Part shown: in pieces, positions 1,881-61,249 of the stretch
Layout: every line of letters begins with the position of its first letter
Numbering within the stretch: position 1 is the stretch's first letter
Assembly: GCA_949130485.1 (NCBI GenBank)
Contig: OX422202.1
Location: 3,880,292-3,944,291 of the forward strand
DNA: 64,000 bases
Source of the DNA: Agelas oroides
Lineage: Eukaryota; Porifera; Demospongiae; Agelasida; Agelasidae
Direction of reading: 5' to 3'
Translations under genes and position numbers: made by a program
Notes under the pieces: generated by a model
The model's input: the letters and a program-made list of their open reading frames with translations, nothing else
Databases searched by the model: none
Told to the model about the DNA's origin: nothing

Positions 1881-4800
1881 GTGAGTTTTTACCTTTCTAC
1901 TTATCCTTTATACCCAATGCATGTCTGTCCGTCACTCTCAACATTGCAAATGTATCTAAGCAGGATCTCAATCATGACAGAGTAAGGGAATCATCATGAA
2001 TATAATGTACCACAAGATACTAAGACTTAATATATTTTTTCTATTAATGCTTGCAATTAACCGTGTGAAATGTCTGCAATCCACCACAGAGCTCAGGAAA
2101 AGTTTATAATAGAATAGCCACTTGGAATAACTGCCATTGTTTGTATTCCGTAACCTGCAGTGTGACTTCTGAGTCTTTTGGAGCACTGCTGACATCTGGT
2201 GAAGGAGGCAGCTCATTGCTACTCTTCCACCCAGTGTTCTTTAGGGAGAGCTATGTGACATATGACAGGGAATTCAGGAGGGCCTGCTGTGGACTTGCTG
2301 GGATGTGTGGTCAATTCTATATGCGAAGACCTCCCAATGACTGCTCCTCGTATATGCCACCAACCTTTAGTAAGACATGAAGGGTGCATTCACTTTCCAT
2401 GCTTATCTGACATTAGCTACACCTCAAGTGGAAAGAAATATATATATATAACCTGCAGTGTGTATATATATATATATATATATATATGTACCGTATGGTT
2501 TGGTAATTTTCGCGAGGGATTTATTTTCACGTTTTTTGCTAGTCAAGAGCCATTTGCAAAATTAAAACTGCAAATTTTTGGTGTCCTCATGTACCTGCGA
2601 GCGAATTGCGTTTCAATCCCCTCTTCTAACGTTCACATGCACATAGCTCGATGAGGTTACATCATATTACATTCCAGATATTTCCAATGCCGCACAAGCA
2701 TCGGTGTGCGCCAAATAGGGATATACGGACTGCCAGCAACACATCAGCACAACCATGACAACTTTAATAATTTCAAGGACATGAACGTCAGCAGACAGAC
2801 TTGAACTATGGTAATATAAAGATTATGTTATCATAGTAAGGAGGTCTATATGGCGAATATACCACCCGAGACCGAGGTTTGCAGTAGATATACCCCGAGC
2901 CGAAGGAGAGGGATATATCTGGCTCGGGGTATATATCAAACTGCAAACTTCCAATGACCGAGGTCGAGGGTAGTATGATTCCGCTGTGTACGCCACCTTA
3001 CTATGGTTCATATAATGTATACTATAGTGCGCGGGCAGATATGTAAGCTCAATGTGATAATCCAGCTTTGCAAATCTTGCAGCAAGTGTTCTCAAAGCAG
3101 GATTGTGAAAGGACAGTTTCTGTAACCTGAATGGTTTGAACTGATGCCAAGAATATTTGCTGCAGGATCCAGATTTTGTGAATGTGAAGATGGGTGTTTG
3201 TAGCATAGAAGCAATTCTGTAGTTGTACCCCAAACTGGGTCGTTCTTCAGGTGCATGCATGTTTCCTTCCTGGAAGATGCTGGCTGTAATTGAAGGTTGC
3301 AGTATTCAAAGTCAGTCACAAGCTTCCTGAGGTCTAAGTGGTACTCCTCACTTTCAAATAACTCCTTTGGCAATGATCGAAACATACAATTTCCATCACC
3401 TTGTATTTTATCAATGGTGTGATTCTGTTGTTTGAGGCTGGTAAGAATTGCTTTGTGGTGGGAGGTGGAGTAATACACAAAGACGTACAAGATACAAAGT
3501 ACTTACCAAGAACATCAGTGGCAGGTATGGAGTGCACCTTCATTCGGAGTTCAGAGCCTATATGGGAAGAGGGTACATGCTAGTATGTTTCTATGTTTTA
3601 GTTTTCATAACAGAGAAAGCGATGTCTCCACTGCAATGGATGCTGAGCTGAGGATTGTGGTACATGCAAGTACTGCATTGATAATCCTTGCTTTGGAGGT
3701 CAGAGAAGCAATGCTGTGTGTACAAATATGAAGCAGTCATCACCTAACCAAGCCTCAGAAATGTACAAATGGAATGTACAGCTGCAAGAGCACTTGGCTC
3801 ACCTTCTTCTTCCTCCAGGTACAAACTGTAGCCTTTCATCTGTGACCAACTCTATTCCTATAGCTGCTGTCCTATCTCTTCCGTGTGTATTACCAAATCC
3901 CTCCTTTTCTACCACCTTCTGTAACTTCAGAGCGTTGAATTTTGCTGTGGCTTTACATGCTGCTTCTTTTCTGATTAATAATCCTTCGGTGTTAGGAAGA
4001 GCATGTTTGAAGGTTGCTAGGGTCTCATCAAGGGTTTTGTTCAGCTTCACCAGAGCTTGCACATCTTTGCAGCTGTAAGTGAGTGTCTCCAAGATTTTGA
4101 GGGTAATTGTTGCTGTCTTTGCTTCCCTTAGTGCATTCTTTCCCTGAAGAATAAATATTCAGAGTAAAAGTTTAGACGGATCACTAAAGACATGAACAGC
4201 TTACCCTCTTATTAGCAGTAGGAAGGGACAACTCCTGGTCATCAGTTGATGGCTCAGCGGGAAGATTGTGATTTGGGGGTAGCAGGTCAGACCCATTGGA
4301 ACTCTCTTATTGGCTGAAATGTGTGTTCAGTGCTTTAATATCAGCACTGATGTGGGGTTTACACGGGTACTCTTGGGGTCATTCCAAGACCATTCTCTTT
4401 GTCTTTGAACTGTTTGCAAGGAAGTTGATGTTTTGTCCAATCTAGGCAGGTGCATGATGGCATTCCAGTTGATGTTCCAAAGTCAACTGTGTTGGCTCTT
4501 TATTTTCCTTGTACTGTAAACTCCCCAGCTTTCCCACTCACAGTAACTATATCATCCTGTCTAGACAGTGTAAAATCACCTGCCTAGGTACAAGGGAACA
4601 AAAATCATTGTAGACCCTTTTGAAGGCTATTTGCTTTAAGTTCTGAAATAAGTATTTTTGGAATCCATCTGGAAGAAATTCTTCGATCAACAATGCTGCT
4701 ACCTGGGACAAGGAACAGCATCTGGGCAAATAGCTATATTTGAGAGTCTTATTCAAGGCTTCTGTGCGATTGTTGGTGTCTACAGCACGATGGAAGGCTG

Positions 4801-7800
4801 CATCCCTGTAAGCATGGGCCCATCGCTGTATAAAAAACAACTGTAAAGATATGTATACTAACCTCCTAAGTCTGGCAACATTCTAAACAAACACACAACA
4901 CATTTGCATACTTGTGGTTTGTTTAGCCACATACATGTTTAGGAGCCAGTGTAACGAATGTGTGGGTTTTCTTTGAATATCCTTTAGGGCTGATTCAGCT
5001 GCTTTCTAAAACTGGTTCACTGGTACACCTTCAGGTTTAGCATATGTGCAGGCACGGAGCAGGTCCAATAACTTCTCTCCATCCTCACGTGAGATTTAAT
5101 GTTTTTGATCCCTTACCCACTGTTCCCAACACTGCTCCCTATGAAAATCACACAAGTAAGGTTTGAATTCCAGGAAAAGCACTCTCTGTATAGCTGCAAT
5201 TTCAGCTTCAGGGTAGTCCAACATGAAAAACTTTGGCTTACATGAAGGATTCCAAGTTTTCAGCACTTCTAAAGCTTCCTGAATATCCTGCACAATTTCA
5301 TTTTGTGTGATGAACTGCGCTACATGAGAATAGCCAACATTTGCTCGCACAGGTATGAAAAAGAGTGGCAACTCATACCTAGTAGTTTTGTAAGTGGCAT
5401 CCATGAGGCTGATGTCATTTCCATATTTTGTCAGGAGTTCCTTTTGCCACTTCTCCTGATGTATCCACAGCAATGTGTCTTCAAAATTGTTTACATCTTC
5501 TGCCATCTCACTTTCACATGTAGTGCTGACACCAGTGTAACACCCTGGTTTGAGAGCATGTTTTTTCGCCTCATTGGTACACTCCTTTCGTTTGAATAGC
5601 CTGAAGATGATGCTCTGATTTTCATTTCAGTAGTTTCAGCTCCAATTTTTTTTTCTGATCAAGTTTGGAGAGCAGTAGTGCTTGTTTTGCTTGGTAGGTA
5701 AACATGATTTTTGATGTCATCTTTTGTTGGATAGTATGCCCTGTCACTGCATGAGTTCAGGCTTTTCTTCCTGATTGAGGTGGTGATTGACATAATGCCG
5801 AAGCATTCGACTGTCAGTGATGTCCTCAGAAACTAGCTCCCTAATTTCTTCTGCTACCTGAGGATGTACGTTTTGGGCCATGCCATGCATCCCACCTGTT
5901 GGGTGAGTCTGATGGTGTGCTTCTTCTGTGGGTAATGACACAAACTATTTCTTCTCAACTTTCACCTCCTTTCCAGTTTTGAGAGACATTCACAATTCTT
6001 CTAGTTTAGACTCACGCATTGTTCTTGCTTTCCAAGCAGACAATGTCTTTGTAACATTGACAGAGTATTCAGTGTACAAGATATACTCTCGTATTTCAAC
6101 ATGAGCTTGGCATCCAATTTTTCTTGTTCCCTGTATGCAGACCCTTGAGCTTTTCCGTTCTGAAATATAATGATCACCAAATTGACAGTGCATTATTGTT
6201 GTCTCTTCCAGGGCAAAAGGTGCATGTGTAGCTGAATTCAACAGCCTTGTGTTTCCAGAAAAGTTGCCGTTTTCCCATGTTGCTGCTGTTAGGCTGGGGG
6301 TGTGAGCAATTCATGAAGATTGATTATATTAATAATGTTGTGGAGTTAGTAATACAACACAAGAATGTATCTGAAATGACATTTTAGCATTATTCTGTTT
6401 TTGCAGACACTGGCCTGAATGCGGCCACTAATGCAAGTAGCATGCAGTATTTTACTTGATAGTATGCTTTAAATTATATCCAATCCTATTTATTTATCAT
6501 TGAGTTTCAAGTGGCCTGGGTGCCAGCTTGCTGTGCCATTGCTGCACAATTCCACATTTCCCGCCACCTGCTTGCGCAATGTGTGAAAGCCACTAAGGGG
6601 AATTCCGTGTATAATTTTGTTTGGCATACCTCATCGAGCTAAGACGATCCCCTCTTCAAACCATCTTAGACTAGCCGTCCTAACTCCAATAGAAGCCTGT
6701 CAGCGAGTGTGCCTTTGACGGCTATTGCTCGAAGTGCTACGTTAGCACAGAAGGACAGTAGTGCAGGGCGGAGAGCGGAAGCGATCACCTCTACTGGAAT
6801 GCCCTGGGTACGAGGCTACATTATACTAAATCTGGCTGTGCCAGTGTATCTTTTTTCTCCATACTGGAACAAAGAGCTCCGCAGACAATTTTAGACATGC
6901 GCTCAGCTTTTCATGGTACAGCTGACGAGCGGGTTCCAAACTCACTGGACGCGAAAATTAAAACTGTGAAAATTTCTGAAACCCGGATTTTTGGCCTGTT
7001 TCGCGAAAAATTACCAACCATACGGTAGCAGTGAATGAATGCAAAAGCCACAGATGTGCATGTGGCTGTCCAATGTTTTAACCTTTTCTTCCAAGCCTGA
7101 GAAGACTTACTAATGTTTGACACCACAGCTAGATACAGTTGTCATTGAAGTATCTTTGGTTAAAGCGCTAAGGCTGAGAGGTAATCCATGGAGACTATAC
7201 AGGGCCAAACATTACTACTTACATTTGCTAAAGATCAGAATATGTAACCACTGCTAACCTGAGTTACGATCAGAAATGTTGACACTTCACACACAAACTT
7301 CACCCCAACTTGCAGCTCTGGAGCCTTGAATAAAGGCTAAGGTAGATACATTGTTAACAAGCTATATCTATCATCTACAACTTTTTGGTAGCAGACTACC
7401 GATACAGCACAGCTACACTGAGCTACAAGTCACTTTGACACTTCAGTGAAGTGCGCACTTAGCTACTGGCTTGCTTCACTACAGTACATCCCATGCCTCC
7501 ACGTTCTTTACAACACTGAACGACGTCTCTCAAAAGCGGTGTTCTTAGCTCTTACACAACTCAGATACAGATACACAATAGTAGCATGGCCATCTTCTGC
7601 AAGTTAGCTGCCTTTGTATCATCTCGCCTATACATGGCTCCAATTGCCACCTACTAGCACCCATTGTAGGTCTTAGACATACAGTGTTCTTGCAATCGCA
7701 AGTAAGCTTCACTTCACTCTACATGTAATGTGTATGCTTATGTTAGAAGCTGGATTGTGCACCTAACTTTGATTCCCTGTTCCTTATTCCACTTTTGCCC

Positions 7801-30192: not shown

Positions 30193-32783
30193 TTAGTTTC
30201 TCTCCAGTGCTTCTAGGTCTATGTGTGTAATGGTTGGTGCTCGCTGGATCCTTCCAAGATCCTCTCCTTGCTGGAGTACTGGGATTGTGCTGCTATGATG
30301 TCTCTGGATGTAGTCCCTGTTGGTATGATTGTACAGATACTGAAGTGATAATGATAAATCTCTGATACCCAGGATTCTAACAATGAAGTGTAATGACAAT
30401 AGTCAGGTGCTACTACACATATACACAAACAGTCTCCAACTTAGTTACTATTTAGAACACTTAACTTGTGGAGAATTTGATCCTGAGCTAAGACTGGGCC
30501 ACATGGGTATCACAAATTTAGGTATTGTGCTCACATACCTGATGTTAAATGTCACCCAAGTGGCCCCTGCTACCAGAAACACAACTGGTGGGAAGTAGTA
30601 CAATGGGAAGAGCAGCCAACTGAATCCTGTGATTCCTTCCACTGCTCTCCTGCATGTGCCCACTGTGGTCATGTTTGAGGTTTGTTGTGGCAGGACTTGT
30701 AGCTCTTCTGAGATCTGCGCTGTGTTTCTCATCAACAGAAGCACAAGAACATCCAGGGAGAGGAGAGACTCCAGAATATTACAATACATGTTTTCATAGG
30801 GTTGCAGATACCCAAACACAGTTATTATCACCAAGATAACAACGATTGCTGGATACTGCATGGAGGGGAAAAATCACAATCGTTGTTCACCAAGCCTTTA
30901 CTGATTCTGATAGAACAGGATGGCTGCCAGAACTCAGTACACACAGCAACAGAAGTCAGCTTTTGAGGAGCTGCACTTACTGTCCAAGCTACATGTATGC
31001 TTGATGTTGCCTATGCTCATGGATATATGTTCACATAGCTTCTATTAAGTACATTTATGAGTCTTTATGACCACAATTTAAACAGCCCATGTTCTAGTTG
31101 TGTGTTTACATCCTACTTTAGCAGCTCATTGGAAAGGCTGCTGTACTATGTATCGCAAGATGTATGACACTGTCTACCATACAGGCAGTTGATCATCACT
31201 GTATATGATATAAAATGCTACACAGTACCGGTACAATAACAGTTAATTACTCACATCATTTCCAGGAAAAGGCACAATAAACAACAGCAGTAGCATTCTC
31301 CTCCCTAGCTCGACTGTGGCCCACCACTTGTACCTTTCCTTAAACCCTTTCTGCACAATCTCTGCAGTGTTCCTCAGCAAGTCAGGACGCTGCATAGAGT
31401 TCATGCAGATAGAGTGGGTTAGTGGTGATAACCCACAAATTAAGTGACATGATATTAATCAGTCACTGAGCCCACCTGCAACCACTTCACTGAGTAGATG
31501 AGGGTGATGGGAATGATGGACAGGCAGAAGGTTAGTACAATGATGGCAAGGAGCCCAAGAGGAGCATGGCCTCCAGTGAAGCAGCTAATATTGCCATTGA
31601 TGTACCAGCGCTACAGAGTACAAGGCAGAGAAATAAGAAGGAAGAAAACGAATGGTTTTGTTGTGCACAGAGAGAAAAATGCATAACTAGCCAGTAACTG
31701 ACTAATAGATATGTTATTAGAAGTACCTACACCTAATTATAAAAATTGCAGCAAAATTTTTTAGTGTACAAGACATGCCTCATGGTAGGTATGATCCCAA
31801 AACTGTATGTATGACTGTATCACTACATAATTTTGACTCACTGGCACATAGTTCCCCGTTCTTCCAGGTAGGATTGGGCAGTTGAGTATGGACATGGATG
31901 TGTACACCACATGAGTGTACATGAGCACCACTATCCACCACAAACCATACCATGGATCACGAGGCTTCTTGTAGATATACCTGTAAACATCATTCATTCT
32001 GTATGCCAAATGTTACCTGTGTTGCCTCATGCAGAACCGACTATCTAGAACATATTTATAGTTGAAGCAAGATGTCCTAAACTTTGAAACAACTAAATGT
32101 TCTTTGCTTGCAATAAAATTTTTGCAGTAACTACACACTTTTGTTAAAACTAGATGCTACTTGCACTATAGTTTGTAAAAAATAACTATTGTAGTATAAA
32201 ATAATTACATACCTTAATACCAGCACAGTGGAGCAGGTGACCAGTGCCACACTGAGGGGCAGGTACCTCAGGAGGTAGGAGACGGAGGCACTCATTCCGT
32301 GGTAGAGACAAAAGTCATAGATGTAATAGAAACTAAGACCACTGCTCATGTAGTACACCTGTGAGTTTATAATACATACACACACATAAAAAAATTATGT
32401 AATGTGGCATTCATGTACGCTATGAGTGAAGCTGAAACAATAATGCACGAACCAAACAAACAGTACGTTATGATGGTTGGCATAAGTGTAGTCTTAACTG
32501 GCATGAGCTATAATGATAAAGATACAACTCACATAGGGGTGGAGTTTCTCAAAGGTAAGTGGAAAATGTTCTGTAAGATATGGCAGAACCTACAGAATGA
32601 CAGTATTGGATGGACTTGTCACTTCATCACACACTGAAAACAAATAGTTATAAAGCTGTGTTGCGGTTGGCTCACCATGCAGTGCACAGCTCACCTGTAA
32701 GTAAAACAAACACGGGTATAGCCAAGCAGGAAACACATTCGCCAGCAACATCAAGCCAATCAGTACCAAAGCATCTAAAAAAG
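30193..32783 (-). CDS. Exons 14-21: eight- or nine-pass membrane domain and tail
   Basis: Hydrophobic segments in order: DALVLIGLMLLANVFPAWLY; VYYMSSGLSFYYIYDF (short); YLPLSVALVTCSTVLVL; WYGLWWIVVLMYTHVVYTSM; LGLLAIIVLTFCLSIIPITL; MLLLLFIVPF; YPAIVVILVIITVFGYL; LESLLSLDVLVLLLM; WLLFPLYYFPPVVFLVAGAT. A 38-base micro-exon (32533-32570) is needed to keep the frame. The segment QPYENMYCNILESLLSLDVL recalls the 'PYxNxxxNxLE' turn of polytopic receptors, but I cannot name a known family. The tail is about 55 residues and hydrophilic. Confidence 0.87.
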
Positions 32784-35700
32784 CTGTAAAACCAAAGTTA
32801 CATTCAGCCATAAAACACCTACATGTACATAAGGCCAGCCATCTGACTGCATTCTATGCATGAAATAGCAGTCCCCATCTCCCGGTCACCCCAGTGCAGC
32901 TGATGAGGCCTGGTATTGGCCAAAACGCGTCCTGCGCAGTGGGTGACTTTGTATAACATCTAGGCCTGTTTTTTTTAAGGGAGATGTAGTTCGTTGATTG
33001 TTCATACACTGTAATATGCTATCTTCTGTGACTCACTTAGCACAGCAATAAGTATTCCTGAGGCATCATGACATGTGACACACGTGTTCAGCAACACACT
33101 CACTCCATAACCATTCCTACAGTTTCCACACAGTACACCTGCACAATCATATTATAGTGATGGTGTAACAGTCAGCAATCAAGAACAGATGTTTGTTCAG
33201 TTCTTAGGTTGTGTGAAGACTGGCCACACACATACACATGCAGCCAGCTACTCAATTGTGAGCATAAATGAAAGACTGCACTGATGTGCATGTGCATGTA
33301 ATTAGCAACCACTGCAACATTAACTTTATGCATGGCTCACCTTCTCTGTCACAGCTACACTGGCTGTCACTGTCCAGGCTATCAAAGGTGAACTTGCAAG
33401 TTGCAGTCCTTCCCTGGACCCCAAGTGCACACTGACAGTACTGGGGTGGACACGGGTAAAACACAAGCTCTTGGGAGCTGTAGTCCTGTGTAGCCCATAA
33501 TCCTTCCTGATAAACAAAAAATCATAGTACACTCCAATTCAGAATCAGAATATGAATATGACAATATGCATTCTCATTCCCAGGCCATTCCCAGATTTTA
33601 TTTTGCAATCTGGGAGTGGCCTGGAACAAGGCTAACGTGTGAATGCATGCCTTGGACAACCATCTAAGTGATACACAACATACTTTTATTGTATCAACCA
33701 TTTGCTCACATTTCTTGTTTTTATTCTCCCCCACAAACAACATGCAGGCAATCTCACACAAAGCTTGTTGCTTGTTGTTCACCACTCTGACTCCACTGTA
33801 GTTATAGTATTCTCCTAGATAAACTGCAATGCTATTAGTGGCCAGGCAAAGTGGAGCCTTCTGAGCTGAGAGTTTAACCTGTGGTTATCTACACTAAAAT
33901 GGTTGTTATATATGCCATAATTGGAAGTTCTCACTATAATATTTTACTCTACACTGTGTAGCGCCTTCCATTTACCCATAAAATGTAGGTATAGTGTGTT
34001 CTTGTTACATGTTATATATTATATATAGTAACTTGTCATCTTGTTCTGTTTTGTTCTGCTGATGGCTGAGTTGCATCAGCAATAAGTGCTACCCACATAG
34101 CTAATACTGGTTTGGGGTGTGTAGTCTACTCACCTTGAGGGTTATACTGTGTCCATTGCAGTCCAGGATGTTTGAGTTCTGGTAGTCACACTCACAGGTG
34201 GTGTACATGTTGCCTTGCAGTGGTGCAGCAGACAGCACATAACCAGGAGGACAGCTAGTGGACACCACAGTGAAGGAGTCCCAACTTGACTATAAGTATA
34301 GTGAAAGTGTACAACTGAAATTATGGCACGTGCAGTGAGCATGGAAGTATGCCCCACATTGACCAGTCATGGCCTCATATGACAAGTGTGCACTAATACA
34401 TACTGGGGGGTCTGATATGACAAAACAACATGATCATACAGAAGGTGTCTGAACTCATCATTAAACTACACTGCACAGACAGTAATATAAATAATGACAC
34501 ACCTGTAAAAGTATTGATTCCACAAACACGTCTTCTTCAAAGTTGGCCCCAGCAAGGCTATAGAATGATGTATTGATGCTGGAGTCTTCAATTTGTCTAT
34601 GTGTTGCCACTGCTGGATTAAATAGGTAGTGTGCCATACCCTGCATGAATGTGCAAATGGTGAAAAATATCATCCTCAAGTATGCTATATGAAATGTATC
34701 TACATACATGCGCAGCTGATTGATAGATTGTGCAATGCTTCATACACAATTGTAATGTCCTTGTGAGGATGCTGATTGTAGGTGTACTACAAAGAGCTTA
34801 GCTTTCATTTTTATCTTTAAACTTACCACAGTGGTAGGACAAAAACTTGCAATACACATACAATCAGCTGTTATATACATACATCTGCTCCCAATCCTCT
34901 CACTCCTTCTTCCTTTTTCACACACCACACTTACATCCGTTTCAGAGAGTCTGAGTATTGTTGCAGTGGGTCTGCCCAGTTCATCAAATGCCTGTACTCC
35001 TAGTTGAAACTGTTCCCCAGGGTAGGCCGATAGCTGAGAAACATATTTAAAACCCACATTGTAGCTATACTTAGGTGTAGGTCATGGAATACAATGTCAA
35101 GTAATTGTGATCATGCGTAAAAATGTGCTTAGTCTTGTTCCCTGGGCTTCGGTTATTTGGTTACTTGCGTACTGTAAGTAATCAACAACTGGAGGTGAGA
35201 AGGCCTGGGAATGACGCAATGTGCACTGGTCAACTTACAGTGTTGGTAGTAACATTGATCTTCTTTGCAGGGGTCTGTATGTACCACTCTGGGTTGAAAG
35301 CATCTGGTTCGTGGGCTGTGTTCTCATTGTCATCACTATACCATAACAATACTTAGGATCATTACAATGTCTACTTTGTGCAGTGATAACAGCTATTATT
35401 ATCTAATTGCTTATGGTACTAGCTATGTGATTGACATCCTTTTGTTCCCATTAGCCCCCACCTCTAGGTTCTGATCCCATACTGAACAAGAGTTAGTGCC
35501 AACCTGAAGTGGACAAAGTTCCACCGGAACACTGCTTCTGGGATAAAGTGATGGTTCTCAAACTTTGTCCAGGAACAGACGTCCAAGTTTGCTACAAATA
35601 CTGCTGACGCAATAACAGCCTTGTTCTCAGAGAATGCGAAGGATACCTGAGGTATAGTAAAAAAAACTATGTATACTTAGTTAGCAAAAGTATATACACA

Positions 35701-38614
35701 TTTTTTTTGCCTTGTAGCCCTAATTGAATAAAATCAACTTATGACAAAGTGACTTTCTTGCAGCAAAGAGGTGTTTTGCAATCACCGACAGTTTCAACTG
35801 CCAGAAACATGACAATACAGAGGTATCTCAAAATTATACTACTAGTGTGTAAACATACACCTCATTCGTGCATGATGTTCATATTTACATTCTCCCACTG
35901 TTCAGGAGACTGTGATGGATCCTCATAGAGGAGGAAGCATAGTGGATTGAACTGTAGCCTAGAGTACACATCTGGCACATAACGACTGTCCACAACAATT
36001 GCAGCTCCCATACTGTTGACAAAGAGGGGAGGTTAGCAAATGTTAAACAGCCAGAGAATGATATCAATGCATGAAGGTATACAAACTAGAACTGTCGATA
36101 TCTTAGGCTCCTAGCTCCACTACAGAAAATTGTCAGACGCTGCATTTGACAGAACATTGTTTGGCCTTAGCTTGGATGTGAGTTCCTTATGCATAAAACT
36201 TTAAGGGGGCACAGATAAGTTGGTGTAGCTTGGTACTACAAAGCTATTTAAAAGAAGGTGGTAGCTACTGTGTGTAGTTTTTCACTCACACTCCTGTGTT
36301 CCCCACAAAGGTCAGGTTAGCTCCTTGAAAGAGTTTCAGGTGTGCCATGGATACAAGATACAATGCTCCTCCTCCTACTCCTGCTCCATCATTGTCGATG
36401 AACTCTATAGTTCCATGCACCTCAATACGAGAGGCCAGTGCCTATCATAAAAAAAGTAAGACAAGTTTCATATAGATAAATATGTGTCAATATCACTTAC
36501 CAGAAAAGCACGTCCTTTGTTTGCCTTAAATGCATTGATTCCACTGAAGTTCAGGGGCACATATGCTGTACTCACTGCTCCACCCAACCCTCCATTGTTG
36601 CTGACAAAGTTGCTGAAAACAAAAACATGCAATGAGACTCTGTACATTGGGTAATTAAGTTCAATACACCAGTTTTTGTGTAGTTTATTGCCTGTGCTGA
36701 ATCCCACACTTATCCTATTAAAGCAAAAATTTTACAATGATCAAGGTAGTTACTGTTGTGTTTTCACTAATAGGGGACCAGTAATGGTACAATGGCTCAT
36801 AGAGACTCAACATTCAATGTGTTAGGAGGTTGCTTACCAGCTTTCTACCTCAAAGGCTTTCGTGTTTTCTACATTTTGAAACACATGTATGAGGTCAGAT
36901 GTGAACCCCATGGCAGCACCTAATACTTCTGCAGTATTTCCAGTAAAGGTGCAGTTCTCAACATGGGCAAAGTTGCTCAGATGACCATCTGGTGCCATTT
37001 CTATAAAACAAAAAGCAATTAGCCAATCAGTTTTGTAAATAAATTTATTTTTATGTCAGTGCTTACCAGCTGGAAACAATCCTGTCCCACCTCCCAACTC
37101 TGCTTGATTCTCAATGAACTCTGAGTTGTAAGCAAACAGTGAGCTAACATTCTCTACATTGGACCCAAAAGCAAAACCAACTGCCAGTCCACCACCCAAC
37201 CGACATTTGTTTCCCACAAATTTAATCCTGTTCAAAACAACTATGTGATCCAAGTGTCCATCAAATGCAACGTACAGTCCCCCTCCAAATGTCCGAGCAA
37301 AATTTTCTTCAAACAAACAATCCTCTAGTGTCACGTTTGAGGGCAAGGATGAAAACATGGGTAGAGCGCATCCTCCGCCTCTTCCTGTAAAAACCCATTT
37401 TAGCAGTATCTGCGTTGAAGTTTGTTGAATACTTGCCAGGGGATCATTAGTGTTGTTGCGAAAGGTACATTTTTCCACTCTGAGTTGTGGCCTCATTGAG
37501 AACATTTTATTCTGGTGATAACTAACAGAGAGGCCTCCTGCGTGTCCTCTGAATGGGTCCTTGATCACTGACACTGGACCATTGTGTTCAAAAGTACAGC
37601 TGGTAACTAGGACCACTGAACAATTAAATATGTCAACAGCACCTTGGATGAAGTATCTGAAAATGGGGCAAAAGTTTGTGAAATGAACATTGTCTTAACA
37701 AAGAGTAGGACTACATATCCAATCCCTATATCTACACTTGGGTTTGCATTCAGCCTAATACACAGAAGCAGAAGAACGGCTGCTCTTACACTTCTGTGTA
37801 TTAGGCTGAATGCAAACCGAGGAACAAAAATGGGGGAGGCCTGGGAACAAGGCTATTTATACTGCACAAATAGCAATAAATCACACCCTTCATATACATA
37901 CTGTTTGAGTGCAGCATCTCTTTCTGCTCTTTAGATACACATATACTGATGATGTAATTTAGGTTGCCATTGATGTTTATTTTGATGCATAGCCCTTGCA
38001 CATTTGCAATAACTGCAGTAGCTAACTAGACCACTGTGGATATGACATAAAGTACAGTGTCTATTTCTACTTTGTAGATGCACAAACCTGAACGAGCAGT
38101 TTTCTACAGTGACATTGGTAACATCCTGGAAGGTAATGATGCCTGGGCTTGTGTGAAAGTCTATTCCACTGATCTCACTGTAATCACTGTCAGCAAATGT
38201 GAGCACATAGTATGGCTTCAGGGTGTTTGCAGGATACAATGTCTCATTCAGACTGAATGTCACTGTAACATTCTGTGTTCCATGAAGCACCACACTGTGA
38301 TGGATAGTAATTACTTCAGTAATCCAATATTTTCCTGAATGCACAACAATTTCAATGCACTCTCCAAGTGAAAGGGGTACTTGGTCTCCTGAAAAACGTA
38401 TTAGTACATCTTGCAGGTCATTGCATGTTTTGTTCACCAAACTGTGAGCGGTGATGGTACTGCAATCCCGTCCTGTTTCCCTGCTCACACCAATCACATC
38501 ATTGCAGTGTTTGCCTAAGGCTACCACAATTACTCCATTAAGGCAGCACAAGATGAATAAGGTACTCCACCAAAACAGTGGATGCGGAGATACTCCTTTC
38601 TTGTAGTTCATCAT
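30193..38614 (-). CDS. Beta-helix, multi-pass membrane protein (Pmp-like repeats), complete gene
   Basis: Twenty-one exons join in one frame (3,756 nt, 1,251 residues): 38614-38088, 37656-37067, 37000-36838, 36612-36501, 36441-36290, 36012-35889, 35646-35504, 35335-35239, 35033-34935, 34640-34503, 34289-34134, 33506-33341, 33138-33037, 32783-32676, 32570-32533, 32358-32213, 31980-31842, 31610-31476, 31389-31255, 30855-30539, 30361-30193. All splice sites are GT-AG. The start is the first of two ATGs, shared with the paralogue at 59539. It has a signal peptide, about 690 residues of beta-helix ectodomain, a Cys-rich linker and eight or nine membrane segments. It should be a surface receptor or channel-like protein; ligand and signalling are unknown. 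The acceptor of the last exon is the least certain; an alternative 12-15 bases downstream changes the tail. Confidence 0.9.
32885..32947 (+). ncRNA. Hammerhead-ribozyme-like motif
   Basis: CTGATGA at 32900-32906 is followed by stem II GGCC/GGCC (32907-32910 and 32918-32921, loop TGGTATT), then AAAAC, a minimal stem III ACGCGT, and the GTC cleavage triplet at 32929-32931. Stem I is GTGCAG (32894-32899) with CTGCGC (32932-32937), a two-base internal loop, and an outer helix GTCACCCCA/TGGGTGAC. CATCTCCC/GGGAGATG (32876, 32979) encloses it. This matches minimal type-I hammerheads known from Penelope-like elements. The core GAAA reads AAAA, which should weaken or abolish cleavage. It lies in an intron of the minus-strand gene, on the opposite strand. 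Confidence 0.6.
33037..34289 (-). CDS. Exons 11-13: cysteine-rich linker before the membrane domain
   Basis: The text TSCPPGYVLSAAPLQGN, CECDYQNSNILDCNG, EGLWATQDYSSQELVFYPCP, then CSCDREGGVLCGNCRNGYGV gives a dense Cys pattern like EGF or TNFR-type modules. The GVLCGNCRxGYGVS motif directly before the first membrane segment looks like a family hallmark; I base this on its position and Cys spacing. Confidence 0.9.
33575..33625. repeat. Very short TAGCCTCGTTCCCAGGC-type palindrome
   Basis: The text 'ctcattcccaggccattccc' and its inverted partner 'gggagtggcctgg(a)aca' form a miniature of the 38771 family inside an intron. No target duplication was confirmed. Confidence 0.6.
34503..36612 (-). 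CDS. Exons 4-10: remaining beta-helix and a membrane-distal sandwich-like segment
   Basis: Exon 4 (NFVSNNGGLGGAVSTAYVP) and exon 5 (IEFIDNDGAGVGGGALYLVS) are further Pmp-like turns. Exon 6 (MGAAIVVDSRYVPDVYSRLQ) and exon 7 (VSFAFSENKAVIASAVFV) end the helix with a Cys pair. Exons 8-9 (INVTTNTLSAYPGEQFQLGV, then DELGRPTATILRL) resemble a beta-sandwich strand pattern. Exon 10 links to the Cys-rich part. Intron phases are mostly 0. Confidence 0.88.
36838..38614 (-). CDS. Exons 1-3: signal peptide and first beta-helix repeats
   Basis: Residues about 13-33 are a strong hydrophobic signal (LFWWSTLFILCCLNGVIVVA). The next region has conserved Cys residues (KHCNDVIG, DCSTIT, NKTCNDLQDV) and then strands typical of a right-handed beta helix (HSVVLHGTQNVTVTFSLNE; ISGIDFHTSPGIITF). 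Exon 2 has repeats of the form FxxNxAxxxGGGLxVxF (CLFEENFARTFGGGLYVAFD; FVGNKCRLGGGLAVGFAFG; EFIENQAELGGGTG), the GGA/I plus FxxN pattern of chlamydial polymorphic membrane proteins. Exon 3 continues the pattern (FTGNTAEVLGAAMGF). Exon lengths 527, 590 and 163 match the paralogue's 527, 596 and 163. Confidence 0.92.
37741..37818. repeat. Perfect 28-bp hairpin in intron 1
   Basis: Arms 37741-37768 and 37791-37818 are exact reverse complements (GGTTTGCATTCAGCCTAATA ...) around a 22-base spacer. It is followed at 37836 by a TAGCCTCGTTCCCAGGC-family end (ggcctgggaacaaggcta), so it may be the core of such an element. Confidence 0.9.
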
Positions 38615-38770
38615 GAGTAGCTATCCTATCATAGAGAAATGGAAATGGAACAAGTGTATATGGTCATCTGCAATTTTCTAAACAGCAATAAGTACGTATC
38701 TTATATTTATGTCAGGAGACTAGATATATCCAGCATCATATATATTATACCCATGCATGCATAAATGTTC

Positions 38771-47110: not shown

Positions 47111-47159
47111 TCAGATGCTTGTCATGCAATGGAAATATTGGTATAATATGTGACTGATT

Positions 47160-50100
47160 GTGATTGTACACACCAAATGGAACTGTTTGATACCCATTTT
47201 GTATAGTTTGGTCAAGTATTAGCTGTTTCGGGCCTGAAATTGTTAGTTACAAGTAACCGATATGTACAAGTGGTAAAATCACAACCGTACATAGACTATT
47301 TTTGAACCATTCATACCAAAATGAAAACAAACATCAAATGTACACATCAAATGGAACTGTTTGATACCCATTTTGTATAGTTTGGTCAAGTATTAGCTCT
47401 TCCAGGCCTAAAATTGTTAGTTACAAGTACCCGATATGTACAAGTGGTAAAATCACAACCGTACCTAGACTCTTTTTGAACCACTCATACCAAAATGAAA
47501 ACAAACATCAGATTATGAATGTACACATCAAATGGAACTGTTTGATACCCATTTTGTATAGTTTGGTCAAGTATTGTCTGTTTCGGACCTGAAATCCTTA
47601 GTTACAACTAACCGATACGTTGGTAAAACCACAATCGTACCCAGACAATTTTCAGAACATTTACTCCAAAATGAAAACAAACATCAGATTATGAATGTAC
47701 GCATCAAATGGAACTGTTTGATACCCATTTTGTATAGTTTGGTCAAGTATTGTCTGTTTCAGGCCTGAAATTCTTAGTTACAAGTAACCGATATGTACAA
47801 GTGGTAAAACCACAACCGTACCCAGACAATTTTCAGAACACTTACTCCAAAATGAAAACAAACATCAGATTTTGAATGTACATCAAATGGAACTGTTTGA
47901 TACCCATTTTGTATAGTTTGGTCAAGTATTGTCTGTTTCGGGCCTGAAATTGTTAGTTACAAGTAACCGATATGGACAAGTGGTAAAACCACAACCGTAC
48001 CCAGACAATTTTCAGAACACTTACTCCAAAATGAAAACAAACATCAGATTATGAATGTACACATCAAATGGAACTGTTTGATACCAATTTTGTATAGTTT
48101 GGTCAAGTATTGTCTGTTTCAGGCCTGAAATTGTTAGTTACAACTAACCGATACGTTGGTAAAACCACAACCGCACCTAGACTATTTTCAGAACATTTAC
48201 TCCAAAATGAAAAAAAAAATCAGATTATGAATGTACACATCAAATGGAACTGTTTGATACCCATTTTGTATAGTTTGGTCAAGTATTAGCTGTTTCAGGC
48301 CTGAAATTGTTAGTTACAACTAACCGATACGTTGGTAAACCACAATCGTACCCAGACAATTTTCAGAACATTTACTCCAAAATGAAAACAAACATCAGAT
48401 TATGAATGTACACATCAAATGGAACTGTTTGATACCCATTTTGTATAGTTTGGTCAAGTATTGTCTGTTTCAGGCCTGAAATTGTTAGCTACAAGTAACC
48501 GATATGTACAAGTGGTAAAACCACAACCGTACCCAGACAATTTTCAGAACACTTACTCCAAAATGAAAACAAACATCAGATTTTGAATGTACACATCAAA
48601 TGGAACTGTTTGATACCCATTTGGTATAGTTTGGTCAAGTATTAGCTGTTTCGGGCCTGAAATTGTTAGTTACAAGTAACCGATACGTACAAGTGGTAAA
48701 ATCACAACCGCACCTAGACTCTTTTTGAATCACTCATACCAAAATGAAAACAAACATCAGATTATGAATGTATACATCAATGGAACTGTTTTATACCCAT
48801 TTTGTATAGTTTGGTCAAGTATTGTCTGTTTCAGGCCTGAAATTGTTAGTTACAAGTAACCGATATGTTAAGTGGTAAAACCACATCCGTACCCAGACAA
48901 TTTTCAGAACACTTACTCCAAAATGAAAACAAACATGAGATTATGAATGTACATATCAAATGGAACTGTTTGATACCCATTTTGTATAGTTTGGTCAAGT
49001 ATTGTCTGTTTCAGGCCTGAAATTGTTAGTTACAAGTAACCGATATGTACAAGTGGTAAAACCACAACCGTACCCAGACAATTTTCAGAACACTTACTCC
49101 AAAATGAAAACAAACATCAGATTATGAATGTACACATCAAATGGAACTGTTTGATACCAATTTTGTATAGTTTGGTCAAGTATTGTCTGTTTCAGGCCTG
49201 AAATTGTTAGTTACAACTAACCGATACGTTGGTAAAACCACAACCGCACCTAGACTATTTTCAGAACATTTACTCCAAAATGAAAAAAAAAAATCAGATT
49301 ATGAATGTACACATCAAATGGAACTGTTTGATACCCATTTTGTATAGTTTGGTCAAGTATTGTCTGTTTCAGGCCTGAAATTGTTAGCTACAAGTAACCG
49401 ATATGGACAAGTGGTAAAACCACAACCGTACCCAGACAATTTTCAGAACACTTACTCCAAAATGAAAACAAACATCAGATTTTGAATGTACATCAAATGG
49501 AACTGTTTGATACCCATTTGGTATAGTTTGGTCAAGTATTAGCTGTTTCGGGCCTGAAATTGTTAGTTACAAGTAACCGATATGTACAAGTGGTAAAATC
49601 ACAACCGCACCTAGACTCTTTTTGAACCACTCATACCAAAATGAAAACAAACATCAGATTATGAATGTGCACATGAAATGGAACTGTTTGATACCCATTT
49701 TGTATAGTTTGGTCAAGCATTAGCTGTTTCAGGCCTGAAATTGTTAGTTACAACTAACCGATACGTTGGTAAAACCACAATCGTACCCAGACAATTTTCA
49801 GAACGCTTACTCCAAAATGAAAACAAACATCAGATTATGAATGTACACATCAAATGGAACTGTTTGATACCCATTTTGTATAGTTTGGTCAAGTATTAGC
49901 TGTTTCAGGCCTGAAATTGTTAGTTACAACTAACCGATACGTTGGTAAACCACAATCGTACCCAGACAATTTTCAGAACATTTACTCCAAAATGAAAACA
50001 AACATCAGATTATGAATGTACACATCAAATGGAACTGTTTGATACCCATTTTGTATAGTTTGGTCAAGTATTGTCTGTTTCAGGCCTGAAATTGTTAGCT

Positions 50101-53100
50101 ACAAGTAACCGATATGTACAAGTGGTAAAACCACAACCGTACCCAGACAATTTTCAGAACACTTACTCCAAAATGAAAACAAACATCAGATTTTGAATGT
50201 ACACATCAAATGGAACTGTTTGATACCCATTTGGTATAGTTTGGTCAAGTATTAGCTGTTTCGGGCCTGAAATTGTTAGTTACAAGTAACCGATACGTAC
50301 AAGTGGTAAAATCACAACCGCACCTAGACTCTTTTTGAATCACTCATACCAAAATGAAAACAAACATCAGATTATGAATGTATACATCAATGGAACTGTT
50401 TTATACCCATTTTGTATAGTTTGGTCAAGTATTGTCTGTTTCAGGCCTGAAATTGTTAGTTACAAGTAACCGATATGTTAAGTGGTAAAACCACATCCGT
50501 ACCCAGACAATTTTCAGAACACTTACTCCAAAATGAAAACAAACATCAGATTTTGAATGTACACATCAAATGGAACTGTTTGATACCCATTTTGTATAGT
50601 TTGGTCAAGTATTGTCTGTTTCGGGCCTGAAATTCTTAGTTACAAGTAACCGATATGGACAAGTGGTAAAACCACAACCGTACCCAGACAATTTTCAGAA
50701 CACTTACTCCAAAATGAAAACAAACTGCAGATTTTGAATGTAGACATGAAATGGAACTGTTTGATACCCATTTTGTATAGTTTGATCAAGTATTAGCTGT
50801 TTCAGGCCTGAAATTGTTAGTTACAACTAACCGATACGTTGGTAAAACCACAATCGTACCCAGACAATTTTCAGAACACTTACTCCAAAATGAAAACAAA
50901 CATCAGATTATGAATGTACATATCAAATGGAACTGTTTGATACCCATTTTGTATAGTTTGGTCAAGTATTGTCTGTTTCAGGCCTGAAATTGTTAGTTAC
51001 AAGTAACCGATATGTACAAGTGGTAAAACCACAACCGTACCCAGACAATTTTCAGAACACTTACTCCAAAATGAAAACAAACATCAGATTATGAATGTAC
51101 ACATCAAATGGAACTGTTTGATACCAATTTTGTATAGTTTGGTCAAGTATTGTCTGTTTCAGGCCTGAAATTGTTAGTTACAACTAACCGATACGTTGGT
51201 AAAACCACAACCGCACCTAGACTATTTTCAGAACATTTACTCCAAAATGAAAAAAAAAAATCAGATTATGAATGTACACATCAAATGGAACTGTTTGATA
51301 CCCATTTTGTATAGTTTGGTCAAGTATTGTCTGTTTCAGGCCTGAAATTGTTAGCTACAAGTAACCGATATGGACAAGTGGTAAAACCACAACCGTACCC
51401 AGACAATTTTCAGAACACTTACTCCAAAATGAAAACAAACATCAGATTTTGAATGTACATCAAATGGAACTGTTTGATACCCATTTGGTATAGTTTGGTC
51501 AAGTATTAGCTGTTTCGGGCCTGAAATTGTTAGTTACAAGTAACCGATATGTACAAGTGGTAAAATCACAACCGCACCTAGACTCTTTTTGAACCACTCA
51601 TACCAAAATGAAAACAAACATCAGATTATGAATGTGCACATGAAATGGAACTGTTTGATACCCATTTTGTATAGTTTGGTCAAGCATTAGCTGTTTCAGG
51701 CCTGAAATTGTTAGTTACAACTAACCGATACGTTGGTAAAACCACAATCGTACCCAGACAATTTTCAGAACGCTTACTCCAAAATGAAAACAAACATCAG
51801 ATTATGAATGTACACATCAAATGGAACTGTTTGATACCCATTTTGTATAGTTTGGTCAAGTATTAGCTGTTTCAGGCCTGAAATTGTTAGTTACAACTAA
51901 CCGATACGTTGGTAAACCACAATCGTACCCAGACAATTTTCAGAACATTTACTCCAAAATGAAAACAAACATCAGATTATGAATGTACACATCAAATGGA
52001 ACTGTTTGATACCCATTTTGTATAGTTTGGTCAAGTATTGTCTGTTTCAGGCCTGAAATTGTTAGCTACAAGTAACCGATATGTACAAGTGGTAAAACCA
52101 CAACTGTACCCAGACAATTTTCAGAACACTTACTCCAAAATGAAAACAAACATCAGATTTTGAATGTACACATCAAATGGAACTGTTTGATACCCATTTG
52201 GTATAGTTTGGTCAAGTATTAGCTGTTTCGGGCCTGAAATTGTTAGTTACAAGTAACCGATACGTACAAGTGGTAAAATCACAACCGCACCTAGACTCTT
52301 TTTGAATCACTCATACCAAAATGAAAACAAACATCAGATTATGAATGTATACATCAATGGAACTGTTTTATACCCATTTTGTATAGTTTGGTCAAGTATT
52401 GTCTGTTTCAGGCCTGAAATTGTTAGTTACAAGTAACCGATATGTTAAGTGGTAAAACCACATCCGTACCCAGACAATTTTCAGAACACTTACTCCAAAA
52501 TGAAAACAAACATCAGATTTTGAATGTACACATCAAATGGAACTGTTTGATACCCATTTTGTATAGTTTGGTCAAGTATTGTCTGTTTCGGGCCTGAAAT
52601 TCTTAGTTACAAGTAACCGATATGGACAAGTGGTAAAACCACAACCGTACCCAGACAATTTTCAGAACACTTACTCCAAAATGAAAACAAACAGCAAATT
52701 TTGAATGTACACATCAAATGGAACTGTTTGATACCCATTTTATACAGTTTGGTCAAGTATTAGCTGTTTCGGGCCTGAAATTGTTAGTTACAACTAACTG
52801 ATACGTTGGTAAAACCACAATCGTACCAAGACAATTTTCAGAACACTTACTCCAAAATGAAAACAAACATCAGATTATGAATGTACACACCAATTGGAAC
52901 TGTTTTATACCCATTTGGTATAGTTTGGTCAAGTATTAGCTGTTTCGGGCCTGAAATTGTTAGTTACAACTAACTGATACGTTGGTAAAACCACAGACTA
53001 TTTTCAGAACACTTACTCCAAAATGAAAACAAACATCAGATTATGAATGTACACACCAAATGGAACTGTTTGATACCCATTTGGTATAGTTTGGTCAAGT

Positions 53101-53299
53101 ATTAGCTGTTTCTGGCCTGAAATTGTTAGTTACAAGTACCCGATATGTACAAGTGGTAAAATCACAACCGTACCTAGACTCTTTTTGAACCACTCATACC
53201 AAAGTGAAAACAAACATCAGATTATGAAGGTATACATCGAATGGAACTGTTTGATACCTGTTTTGTATAGTTTGGTCAAGTATTAGCTGTTTCAGGCCT
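47160..53299 (+). repeat. About 180-bp satellite array with higher-order structure
   Basis: About 34 head-to-tail monomers (176-181 bp measured between GAATGTAC landmarks at 47517, 47693, 47874 and 48053). Each holds 'caaatggaactgtttgatac', 'tatagtttggtcaagtatt', 'ggcctgaaattgttagttac' and 'tactccaaaatgaaaacaaa'. Subtypes differ in GTTACAAGTAAC versus GTTACAACTAAC and in a deletion of ACAAG. Marker variants recur at a period of about 1,967 bp (11 monomers), for example 'acatatcaaa' at 48951 and 50918, and 'gtgcacatgaaatgg' at about 49668 and 51634. No ORF. Confidence 0.97.
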
Positions 53300-53642
53300 G
53301 ATTCATATTACATATATGATCATGCAATAACTTTTCCAACTCCTGTAGCTTTAGTCTGGAGAGAACAACCATCATGACAGGTAGTAGCGTGTATGTAGAG
53401 TCTGTTTTGTTACAGAAACTTATACTTAGAAGTACAGGAGCCAGCCTCGCAAACAGGGTGGGGCTAATAATGACAGGGGCGTGGCTCAGTCCTTGTACGC
53501 GTGCGCAACATGGCACGCGCGCCATTTCGCATTTTCTCACTTCGATCGTACACTTCAAGTTCGTCTTCTTTGATATGATCCGTTCGTGAAAATTCCGCCA
53601 GCAACAAAATGGTACCTGAGCTTAGTGGAGGAGAAGGCTTAC

Positions 53643-59065: not shown

Positions 59066-59538
59066 ATACCAGTATGCGTGCTCCGTGCGCAATACTGAAA
59101 GTAATCCGCGCTGTGATTGGGTCTAAGCTTGCTGGACTGTTGACTGCCAAGTGCTGACTAGGCAGTGGCTTTCAAATCTTAATATCGCGCACTATCACAC
59201 GACCAGTCAGCTGTGCGTGCATGCGTTGTGCATACGCTCGGTATAGGCATGGATAATAGACCTGTGGTATTAAGCCCTAGCCGATGGAGATAGTTTCCAG
59301 TTTTCCAGTAGCTCAGCAAGCAATGATTGTGATGATGAGCCTCTTCTCAAGAAGCTCTGTGTGCTTCTCTGTATATGCCTCAGAATGCACCAGAATGCGC
59401 CACAGAACACTTAAAATTATATACCAACATTTCCTGGGGGAGCATGCCCCCCAGTTTCTGAGGGTGACCTTAGCCCTGCCTTGACAATGGACACTTCATT
59501 TGTGTCATTTCTCTGTCTATATTATAGGATAACTACTC
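59066..59538 (+). promoter_or_regulatory. 5' flank of the three-exon beta-helix paralogue
   Basis: The last 40 bases before the ATG (tttctctg..ttataggataactactc) resemble the same region of the minus-strand gene (tttctc..tgataggatagctactc). The shared homology therefore extends upstream of the coding start; 'ttatag' could be a 3' splice site of a 5'-UTR intron. Further out I see no promoter element I can support. Confidence 0.35.
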
Positions 59539-61151
59539 ATGATGAAGTTTAAGGAAGGGGTATCTCCACATCCACTGTTTTGGTGGAGTATCTTATTCAT
59601 CTTGTGCTGCCTTAATGGAGTAATCGTGGTAGCCTTAGGCAAACACTGCAAAGATGTGATTGGCGTGAGCAGGGAAACAGGACTGGATTGCAGTACCATC
59701 ACCACTCACAGTTTGGTGAACAAAACATGCAATGACCTGCAAGATGTACTACTACGTTTTTCAGGAGACCAAGTACCCCTTTCACTTGGAGAGTGCATTG
59801 AAATTGTTGTGCAATCAGGCAAGTATCCGATTACAGAAACAATTACTATCCATCACAATGTGGTGCTTCATGGAACACAGAATGTTACAGTGACATTCAG
59901 TCTGAATGAGACATTGTATCCCATTAATGCCCTGAAGCCATACTATGTGCTCACGTTTGCGGACAGTGATTACAGTGAGATCAGTGGAATAGACTTTCAC
60001 ACAAGCCCAGGCATCATTACCTTCCAGGATATCACCAACGTCACTGTAAAGAACTGCTCTTTCAGGTATGTGTAACTACTAATACTTAGAAATAGGTGCA
60101 GTGCATGTACAATGTACATAATGTACATGCAATATAATACATGCATCAAGAGCTTATTGAGTCACCCATGCACGGCACTCTTGACTACATTTACTGGTGT
60201 AGTGTGGATATTGCAAATTATCTGCGTACATAATTTGTAATATCAACTGGGTTGAACATATAGATCTTTAAAGCCAGGCAATCAAGATGATGATAACAAT
60301 GTTTATCTTTTGCACCATTTGCAGATATTTCATCCAAGGTGCTGTTGACATATTTAATTGTTCAGTGGTCCTAGTTACCAGCTGTACCTTTGAACACAAT
60401 GGTCCAGTGTCAGTAACCAAGAAGCAGTACAGGGGCCATGCAGGAGGTCTGTCTCTTAGTTATCACAAACACAAGATATTTTCAATGAGACCACAATTTA
60501 GAGTGAAAAAATGCACCTTTCGCAACAATACCAGTGACCCCTTGGCAAGTATTCAACAGAGCTCAACTCAAATATTGCAGCAATATATTTTTACAGGAAG
60601 AGGAGGAGGATGTGCTATACCCATGTTTTCATCTTCAGTGCCCTCAAATGTGACTCTAGAGGACTGTTTGTTTGAAGCAAATTTTGCTCGGACACTTGGA
60701 GGGGGACTGTATGTTGCATTTGATGGACACTTAGATCACGGAGTAGTTTTGAACAGGATTAAATTTGTGGGAAACAAATGTCATTCGGCTGGTGGACTGG
60801 CAGTTGGCTTTGCTTTTGGGTCAAGTCAGATGGATAAAGTCAGCTCACTGTTTGCCTACAACTCAGAATTTATTGAGAATCAAGCAGTGTTAGGAGGTGG
60901 AGCAGCAGTGTATCCAGCACGTAAGTATATGGTATCAACACCATCTTACAAAGCTGATTAAGTTAATTTTGTTTTCCTGTGTATGTAGAAATGGGACCAG
61001 ATGGTCGTCTAAGCAACTTTGCTCACTTTGAAAACTGTACCTTCACTGGAAACACTGCAGAAATACTAGGCGCTGCCATGGAATTTACATCTGACCTCAT
61101 ACATGTCTTTCAAAATGTAGAAAGTACCAAAGCCTTTGAGGTAGAAAGCTG
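59539..61151 (+). CDS. Truncated paralogue of the beta-helix membrane gene (exons 1-3)
   Basis: Exons 59539-60065, 60325-60920 and 60989-61151 are intact, with the same phases and nearly the same lengths as exons 1-3 of the minus-strand gene. Exon 1 has about 16 differences in 176 residues (MMKFKEGVSPHPLFWW...). Exon 2 keeps the FxxN/GGG repeats (CLFEANFARTLGGGLYVAFD). A GTAAGC donor follows exon 3, but no exon 4 (SNNGGLGG-type) or membrane exons are found before the LINE at the window edge. It is either a partial duplicate or continues beyond the window through a very long intron. If transcribed as is, it would encode a secreted beta-helix ectodomain. Confidence 0.85.
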
Positions 61152-61249
61152 GTAAGCAACACCATAACTACACTGTAAAACACCTATTGTGTGTCATGTC
61201 AGGTACACCAATGAAACTTTAGTACATTATTAGAAATCCAAGAAATGCC

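Follow-up and report, generated by a model that had tools for sequence, protein, structure and literature searches.

Conserved intronic hammerhead ribozymes are present in amniote genomes. Cervera and De la Pena reportedly described minimal type I hammerheads in Penelope-like elements in 2014, and permuted Penelope-like elements having an N-terminal GIY-YIG domain are said to have been reported by Craig et al. in 2021 under the names Naiad and Chlamys.

In the available sections of the account of Penelope-like hammerheads, G12 of the core is given as the general base (PMC6155905). The family analyzed here agrees with it in an open stem I, in a minimal stem III and in lying in the pseudo-LTR of a tandem RT/GIY-YIG element, whereas the window copy carries A at position 12 and an enclosing 8-bp helix which is not among the features described in those sections (PMC6155905). 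In the sections available on the Anolis element Poseidon_Ac (PAc; Frangieh et al. 2024), ribozyme mutants are stated to equal the wild type in their insertion in vitro (PMC11167929). By the same sections PAc and the present element are alike in tandem pseudo-LTRs, in the hammerhead and in insertions that end past the ribozyme cut; the transcript-internal start of reverse transcription and the unprocessed main template of PAc (in vitro) are resembled by the ends found here. They differ in that GIY-YIG is C-terminal in PAc but N-terminal here, that the PAc ORF starts inside the ribozyme whereas here the expected cut lies ~208 nt ahead of the first Met, and that PAc prefers AT-rich DNA whereas the present junctions are TRCA-rich (PMC11167929). 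Metazoan retrozymes are described, in the part of the source available, as 150-450 bp repeats giving circles of ~170-400 nt (circles generally "from 150 to >1000 nt"), and as co-occurring with Penelope-like elements (PMC7229834).

Here we analyzed a hammerhead in the window, that is, the whole 64,000-nucleotide stretch from the genome of the sponge Agelas oroides. With a probability of roughly 0.93, the window copy is the 3′-terminal 175 bp of a Penelope-like element, 5′-truncated, inserted antisense into an existing short intron by the mechanism proposed below and since decayed. By itself the copy is an ordinary decayed repeat, a dead solo ribozyme of a known retroelement kind. The added interest lies in its family, which combines a permuted domain order with a hammerhead and a nested 3′ structure. 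It is a multi-copy, hammerhead-bearing Penelope-like family in one genome, with GIY-YIG before RT, intact ORFs and copies of mixed ages, and the role of the ribozyme could therefore be tested by comparing insertion ends.

Hammerhead parts in the window

Read from the letters of the window, a type I hammerhead layout with minimal stem III occupies 32876-32986 of the forward strand, on which all its parts lie; the CTGANGA core, the three ordered stems and the GUH triplet are all present. The 5′ strand (32885-32899) and 3′ strand (32932-32947) of stem I form 7 outer pairs (32885-32891 with 32941-32947), a 2-nt internal loop and 6 inner pairs including one G-U (32894-32899 with 32932-32937). The catalytic core CTGATGA follows at 32900-32906, its invariance in the 20-row alignment being a product of row selection, and then stem II, in which GGCC pairs with GGCC across a 7-nt loop (32907-32910 with 32918-32921, span 32907-32921). 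The next four bases are AAAA (32922-32925), so that core position 12 is A32922 and the copy lacks GAAA with the catalytic G12. The minimal stem III ACGCGT (32925-32930) has one A-U and one C-G pair closing a 2-nt loop and is followed by the end of the GTC triplet (32929-32931), and by analogy with known hammerheads an active copy would be cut between 32931 and 32932. All of this is enclosed by the 8-bp outer helix of CATCTCCC (32876-32883) and GGGAGATG (32979-32986), recognized from both sequence and fold. The preliminary description, made from the letters alone, had named these parts, their order and extent, the enclosing pair and the AAAA where GAAA is expected, and all were found where it placed them; it had also given the outer helix of stem I 8 bp, and the helix stands but counts 7 bp.

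In RNAfold the 111-base stretch is more stable than its shuffles (z -3.25; 1/200 shuffles equally stable), and its minimum-energy structure includes the outer helix and stem I, without stem II in the hammerhead register. For the intact sister L005 stem II is predicted, while the core bases GATG are paired to CGTC instead of stem III forming. The complete catalytic core is absent from the minimum-energy fold of both, which counts against the reading.

Across the entire window no Rfam match above the gathering score was obtained. The best weak match in 501 bases was Hammerhead_HH9, which reached 18.7 bits (gathering score 52, E 0.058). The preliminary description had counted the lack of a covariance hit above threshold against a hammerhead, and that lack is literally what was found; but L005, the only intact sister scored and one with the exact majority ribozyme, also stays at 23.2 bits against 52, so the miss says little about this subtype. 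As seen in this one intact copy, Rfam hammerhead models can overlook the subtype with minimal stem III.

The sister family and its Penelope-like element

The genome was scanned for sisters over 259 Mb in 141 contigs. At least 40 places are 93-100% identical to the 161-base query (the best 40 of 2857 candidates were scored), and the window copy is ~94% identical to its sisters. The 27-base core with N at position 12 occurs at 319 places and, when up to 3 mismatches are allowed, the 68-base ribozyme at 240, with 0 for either pattern when reversed; the window hammerhead is thus not a product of chance. The presence of hammerhead-bearing elements in this genome, surmised beforehand, is hence borne out by a whole family, and so is the expectation that most sisters carry GAAA: among 100 listed of the 319 core places, position 12 is G in 84, A in 14, C in 1 and T in 1. 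Among the places listed for the 68-base ribozyme 99 match it exactly; since the pattern itself contains GAAA, these prove nothing about an AAAA variant.

Some further ribozymes were observed beside these. L113 (G000:C2:1934519-1934699) is a diverged relative, ~80% identical, having a longer loop II, an intact core and GGGAGATGTGG on its 3′ side; no second close copy of it was found among the rows scored (best 40 of 802 candidates). Additional ribozyme-like sequences lie near other family copies, at position 596 of L036 and at 2354-2409 (minus strand) of L009. A search for hammerheads with a longer stem III gave 36 places against 12 for the reversed control, and its listing holds mainly the retrozyme-like family treated below; two of its places, C7:3165994 and C1:20090887, look like altered members of the window family.

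Three loci hold two ribozymes each, at spacings of 3558, 3558 and 3553 bp, which gives a Penelope-like unit of ~3.56 kb occurring in partial tandems, whose upstream units are 5′-truncated at differing points. In L031 and L032 an open frame 1012 codons long runs between the paired ribozymes; in L033 this frame is interrupted by one TAG. In Pfam, GIY-YIG matches at residues 148-237 with 24.7 bits (above the cut-off of 22.6) and RVT_1 at residues 652-862 with 24.4 bits (E 2.7e-5, below the curated cut-off of 29.6). GIY-YIG thus stands N-terminal to RT in one ORF, the domain order of the permuted clade. The hammerhead of the better-kept element sits in the pseudo-LTR, past the stop codon of one unit and ahead of the ORF that follows. 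The sister element is therefore Penelope-like by its layout, with permuted domain order, and the two suggestions of the preliminary description, that the hammerhead is of the minimal type I known from Penelope-like elements and that copies stand in tandem near a Penelope-like reverse transcriptase, are both supported by the three tandems around the GIY-YIG/RT ORF. In its domain order the element resembles the permuted elements named Naiad and Chlamys, which share GIY-YIG followed by RT in a single ORF.

A protein search in which the best 45 of 520 candidates were scored gave, among 48 match rows, at least seven full-length stop-free ORFs (one of them from residue 2) and two more with one stop. 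A sequence search of PDB gave four matches, all at chance level. In a limited literature search, from which priority is not claimed, no report was found joining Naiad-type Penelope-like elements with hammerheads, and none on hammerhead ribozymes in a sponge genome. One element at G000:C4:5757706-5760810, together with L109, has ORF pieces 56-87% identical to the young family and a ribozyme end 94.7% identical; decay of the frame, a mosaic origin or a more strongly conserved 3′ RNA may account for this mismatch.

The copies end on the 3′ side at a common point ~71 nt past the expected cut, and their 5′ ends vary. With an anchor placed upstream of the cut, 34 copies in which G12 has become A (G12A) were sampled, and in 31 of them at least 9/16 bases just past the cut match. 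Parts are missing inside L077 and L107, which nevertheless match at the 3′ end, and L080 seems to stop shortly ahead of the cut. No copy ending exactly at the cut was found among these 34, some of the stretches compared being cut short. Six 5′ ends of ORF-complete copies were available, one from a tandem and five from single copies. The five single full-length copies start at varied points downstream of the cut, the nearest ~18 nt away, and since none of these 5′ ends lies at the cut, no sign that cleavage takes part in the life cycle was found in the genome. Seven places were listed for the unit-to-unit junction (up to 3 mismatches), of which those on C10 and C3 fall outside this comparison of 5′ ends. 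Divergence within tandems against that between loci was meant to separate rolling-circle copying from read-through; copies differ at 0-10 positions in those comparisons that indels leave in register, and the ungapped comparison breaks down for L033 and L034, so that the two modes are not told apart.

In the 12-nt 5′ flank TRCA is present at 17/29 loci, compared with 14% in nearby sequence (flanks only), and the 3′ tetramer is repeated in this flank at 9/29 loci compared with 6.5%. That tetramer is TGCA in 12/29 and TACA in 10/29, TGCA being also the reading of the next unit. The TRCA-rich 5′ flanks suggest a target preference of the GIY-YIG endonuclease of the element.

A mechanism can be proposed from these ends. 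The endonuclease would nick TRCA-like targets, the RT would start near ...TTGTTCA and copy back through the uncleaved ribozyme until falling off, and the fall-off would leave solo ribozyme-bearing stubs such as the window copy. In active copies the ribozyme may cut tandem transcripts into units, a function of cleavage that we infer for this element. It is possible, though on balance doubtful, that the ribozyme forms part of a larger nested 3′-terminal RNA (outer helix and hammerhead) which the RT would recognize, starting ~71 nt past the cut, with cleavage kept for a separate step, e.g. freeing single coding units or circles from tandem transcripts. It would then not serve to make the template 3′ end.

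The genome also has a second hammerhead family. Rfam Hammerhead_1 (RF00163) matches at least 29 places above threshold and one below (best 73 of 27511 candidates scored), as against one match, below the cut-off, in 14 control genomes. These places are of type I (L039-L067, e.g. G000:C5:11180944-11185040); 16/29 stand at a spacing of 606 bp (C3, C5, C9), and some units lie close together in opposite orientation. From overlapping loci, some counted repeatedly, 20 unit readings were taken and represent 3 distinct sequences. We consider this family of 606-bp units retrozyme-like. Judged by the available part of the source, it shares with animal non-LTR retrozymes the type I hammerhead in tandem units and a genome that also holds Penelope-like elements, and differs in its 606-bp unit and in the opposite orientation of some neighbours (PMC7229834).

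The model of the window family recognizes the ribozyme of the 606-bp unit at 26.2 bits, and in several pairs of stem I both bases are different between the two families. In a two-family alignment which was fitted to the model and retains 2/16 rows that are antisense, the cells with two-sided change number 37 against 17.5 in shuffles and the score is 0.320 against 0.137, whereas the pairs that show two-sided change (8 against 7.3) and further pair types (16 against 16.5) do not rise above shuffles; in all, 3/5 measures exceed all 500 shuffles and 2/5 do not. Within the window family no compensatory stem changes exceeding shuffles were detected, and two-sided changes are seen only between it and this second family. 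The preliminary description had held it against the hammerhead if sisters preserving the stems by compensatory changes were missing: sisters that keep the stems do exist, and compensatory change inside the family does not go beyond shuffles.

The presence of the 606-bp family, and of several window-family copies shorter than 200 bp, might suggest that the window copy is a non-autonomous, retrozyme- or SINE-like element carrying only a ribozyme and moved in trans by the Penelope-like element. This is improbable, as the 606-bp unit matches the coding unit over no more than 10 bases and the copies have varied 5′ starts grading into ones with up to ~3 kb of the coding unit, which is expected from 5′ truncation.

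The altered core position

Two accounts of the A at position 12 were compared, namely decay and a functional AAAA core that would define a separate active subfamily. For the latter it may be said that CCAAAA is found at 49 places, the window included, and that where stem III is intact the A is kept at some sites: the pattern CTGATGAGGCC..GGCCNAAACGCGTC occurs at 207 places (0 for the reversed pattern), and among 100 of these listed position 12 is G in 95 and A in 5. But G12 is preceded by C and so belongs to a CpG site, and the complementary C-to-T change of this CpG is about equally common, at 62 places.

The G12A copies are also old. Of the other 48 CCAAAA places, 34 were aligned with the window copy over positions 98-138; in these and the window copy, 69/171 CpG cells (40%) differ from the young-copy majority against 109/1205 other cells (9%; Fisher p 6e-23), some of the non-CpG differences stemming from flanks aligned past the end of a copy. 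In 30 mostly young loci the CpG excess is small (10/420 against 54/4760 other cells). Because the site is a CpG, the changes of both strands are similarly frequent and the G12A copies have decayed at other CpGs as well, AAAA is best explained as decay, and an active AAAA variant is very improbable; this reading, which the preliminary description had left open, is rejected on the CpG site, the matching complementary change and the age of the copies. Its other suggestion, that the window copy may be dead, probably holds: with the general base G12 turned into A by CpG decay, the window ribozyme is predicted from its sequence to be inactive.

The insertion in its host intron

By BLAST to the L031 unit, the solo 5′-truncated 3′ end of the Penelope-like element covers 175 bp at 32830-33004 on the forward strand and starts inside the 3′ non-coding region of the unit; the base preceding 32830 also matches the unit and was assigned to the flank. 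TACA stands on both sides (32826-32829 and 33005-33008), a putative 4-bp target-site duplication. The insertion is held by an intron of 253 nt at 32784-33036 of a gene on the minus strand, placed by splice sites aligned with six paralogs. Alignment with the paralogs also gives the upstream exon (33037-33139, minus strand) and the downstream exon (32695-32783, minus strand), which is hydrophobic and transmembrane-like by eye; exons further upstream match Pfam Beta_helix and probably belong to the same gene. This agrees with the intron position and antisense orientation given in the preliminary description.

The equivalent intron without insertion is 64-113 nt long in five of the six paralogous stretches and 38 or 56 nt in the sixth (two candidate acceptors), and the host intron minus the insertion measures 253 - 179 = 74 nt. 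As the intron has 253 nt here and at most 113 nt in the six paralogs, the insertion entered a pre-existing intron. The ribozyme is antisense to the gene, so the pre-mRNA holds its complement and not the ribozyme, and the copy looks to point the wrong way to affect the host gene. That the host had domesticated it for RNA processing of this gene, like the conserved amniote intronic hammerheads, can be dismissed as scarcely credible and was rejected, since it is antisense, lacks G12, is absent from the six paralogous introns examined and has its core dispersed at hundreds of places, for all that it lies near both splice sites with outer helix and stem I still intact.

Three minor observations were made elsewhere in the window. 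Two inverted paralogous stretches of beta-helix-type genes, 84% and 91% identical, lie at 59497-61168 (forward strand) and 36821-38656 (minus strand). A satellite array with a period of ~181 bp and 34.5 copies, to which 360 bp also fits, extends over 47156-53301, and a fragment resembling a MULE/ZSWIM transposase is located at 5096-5626 on the minus strand.
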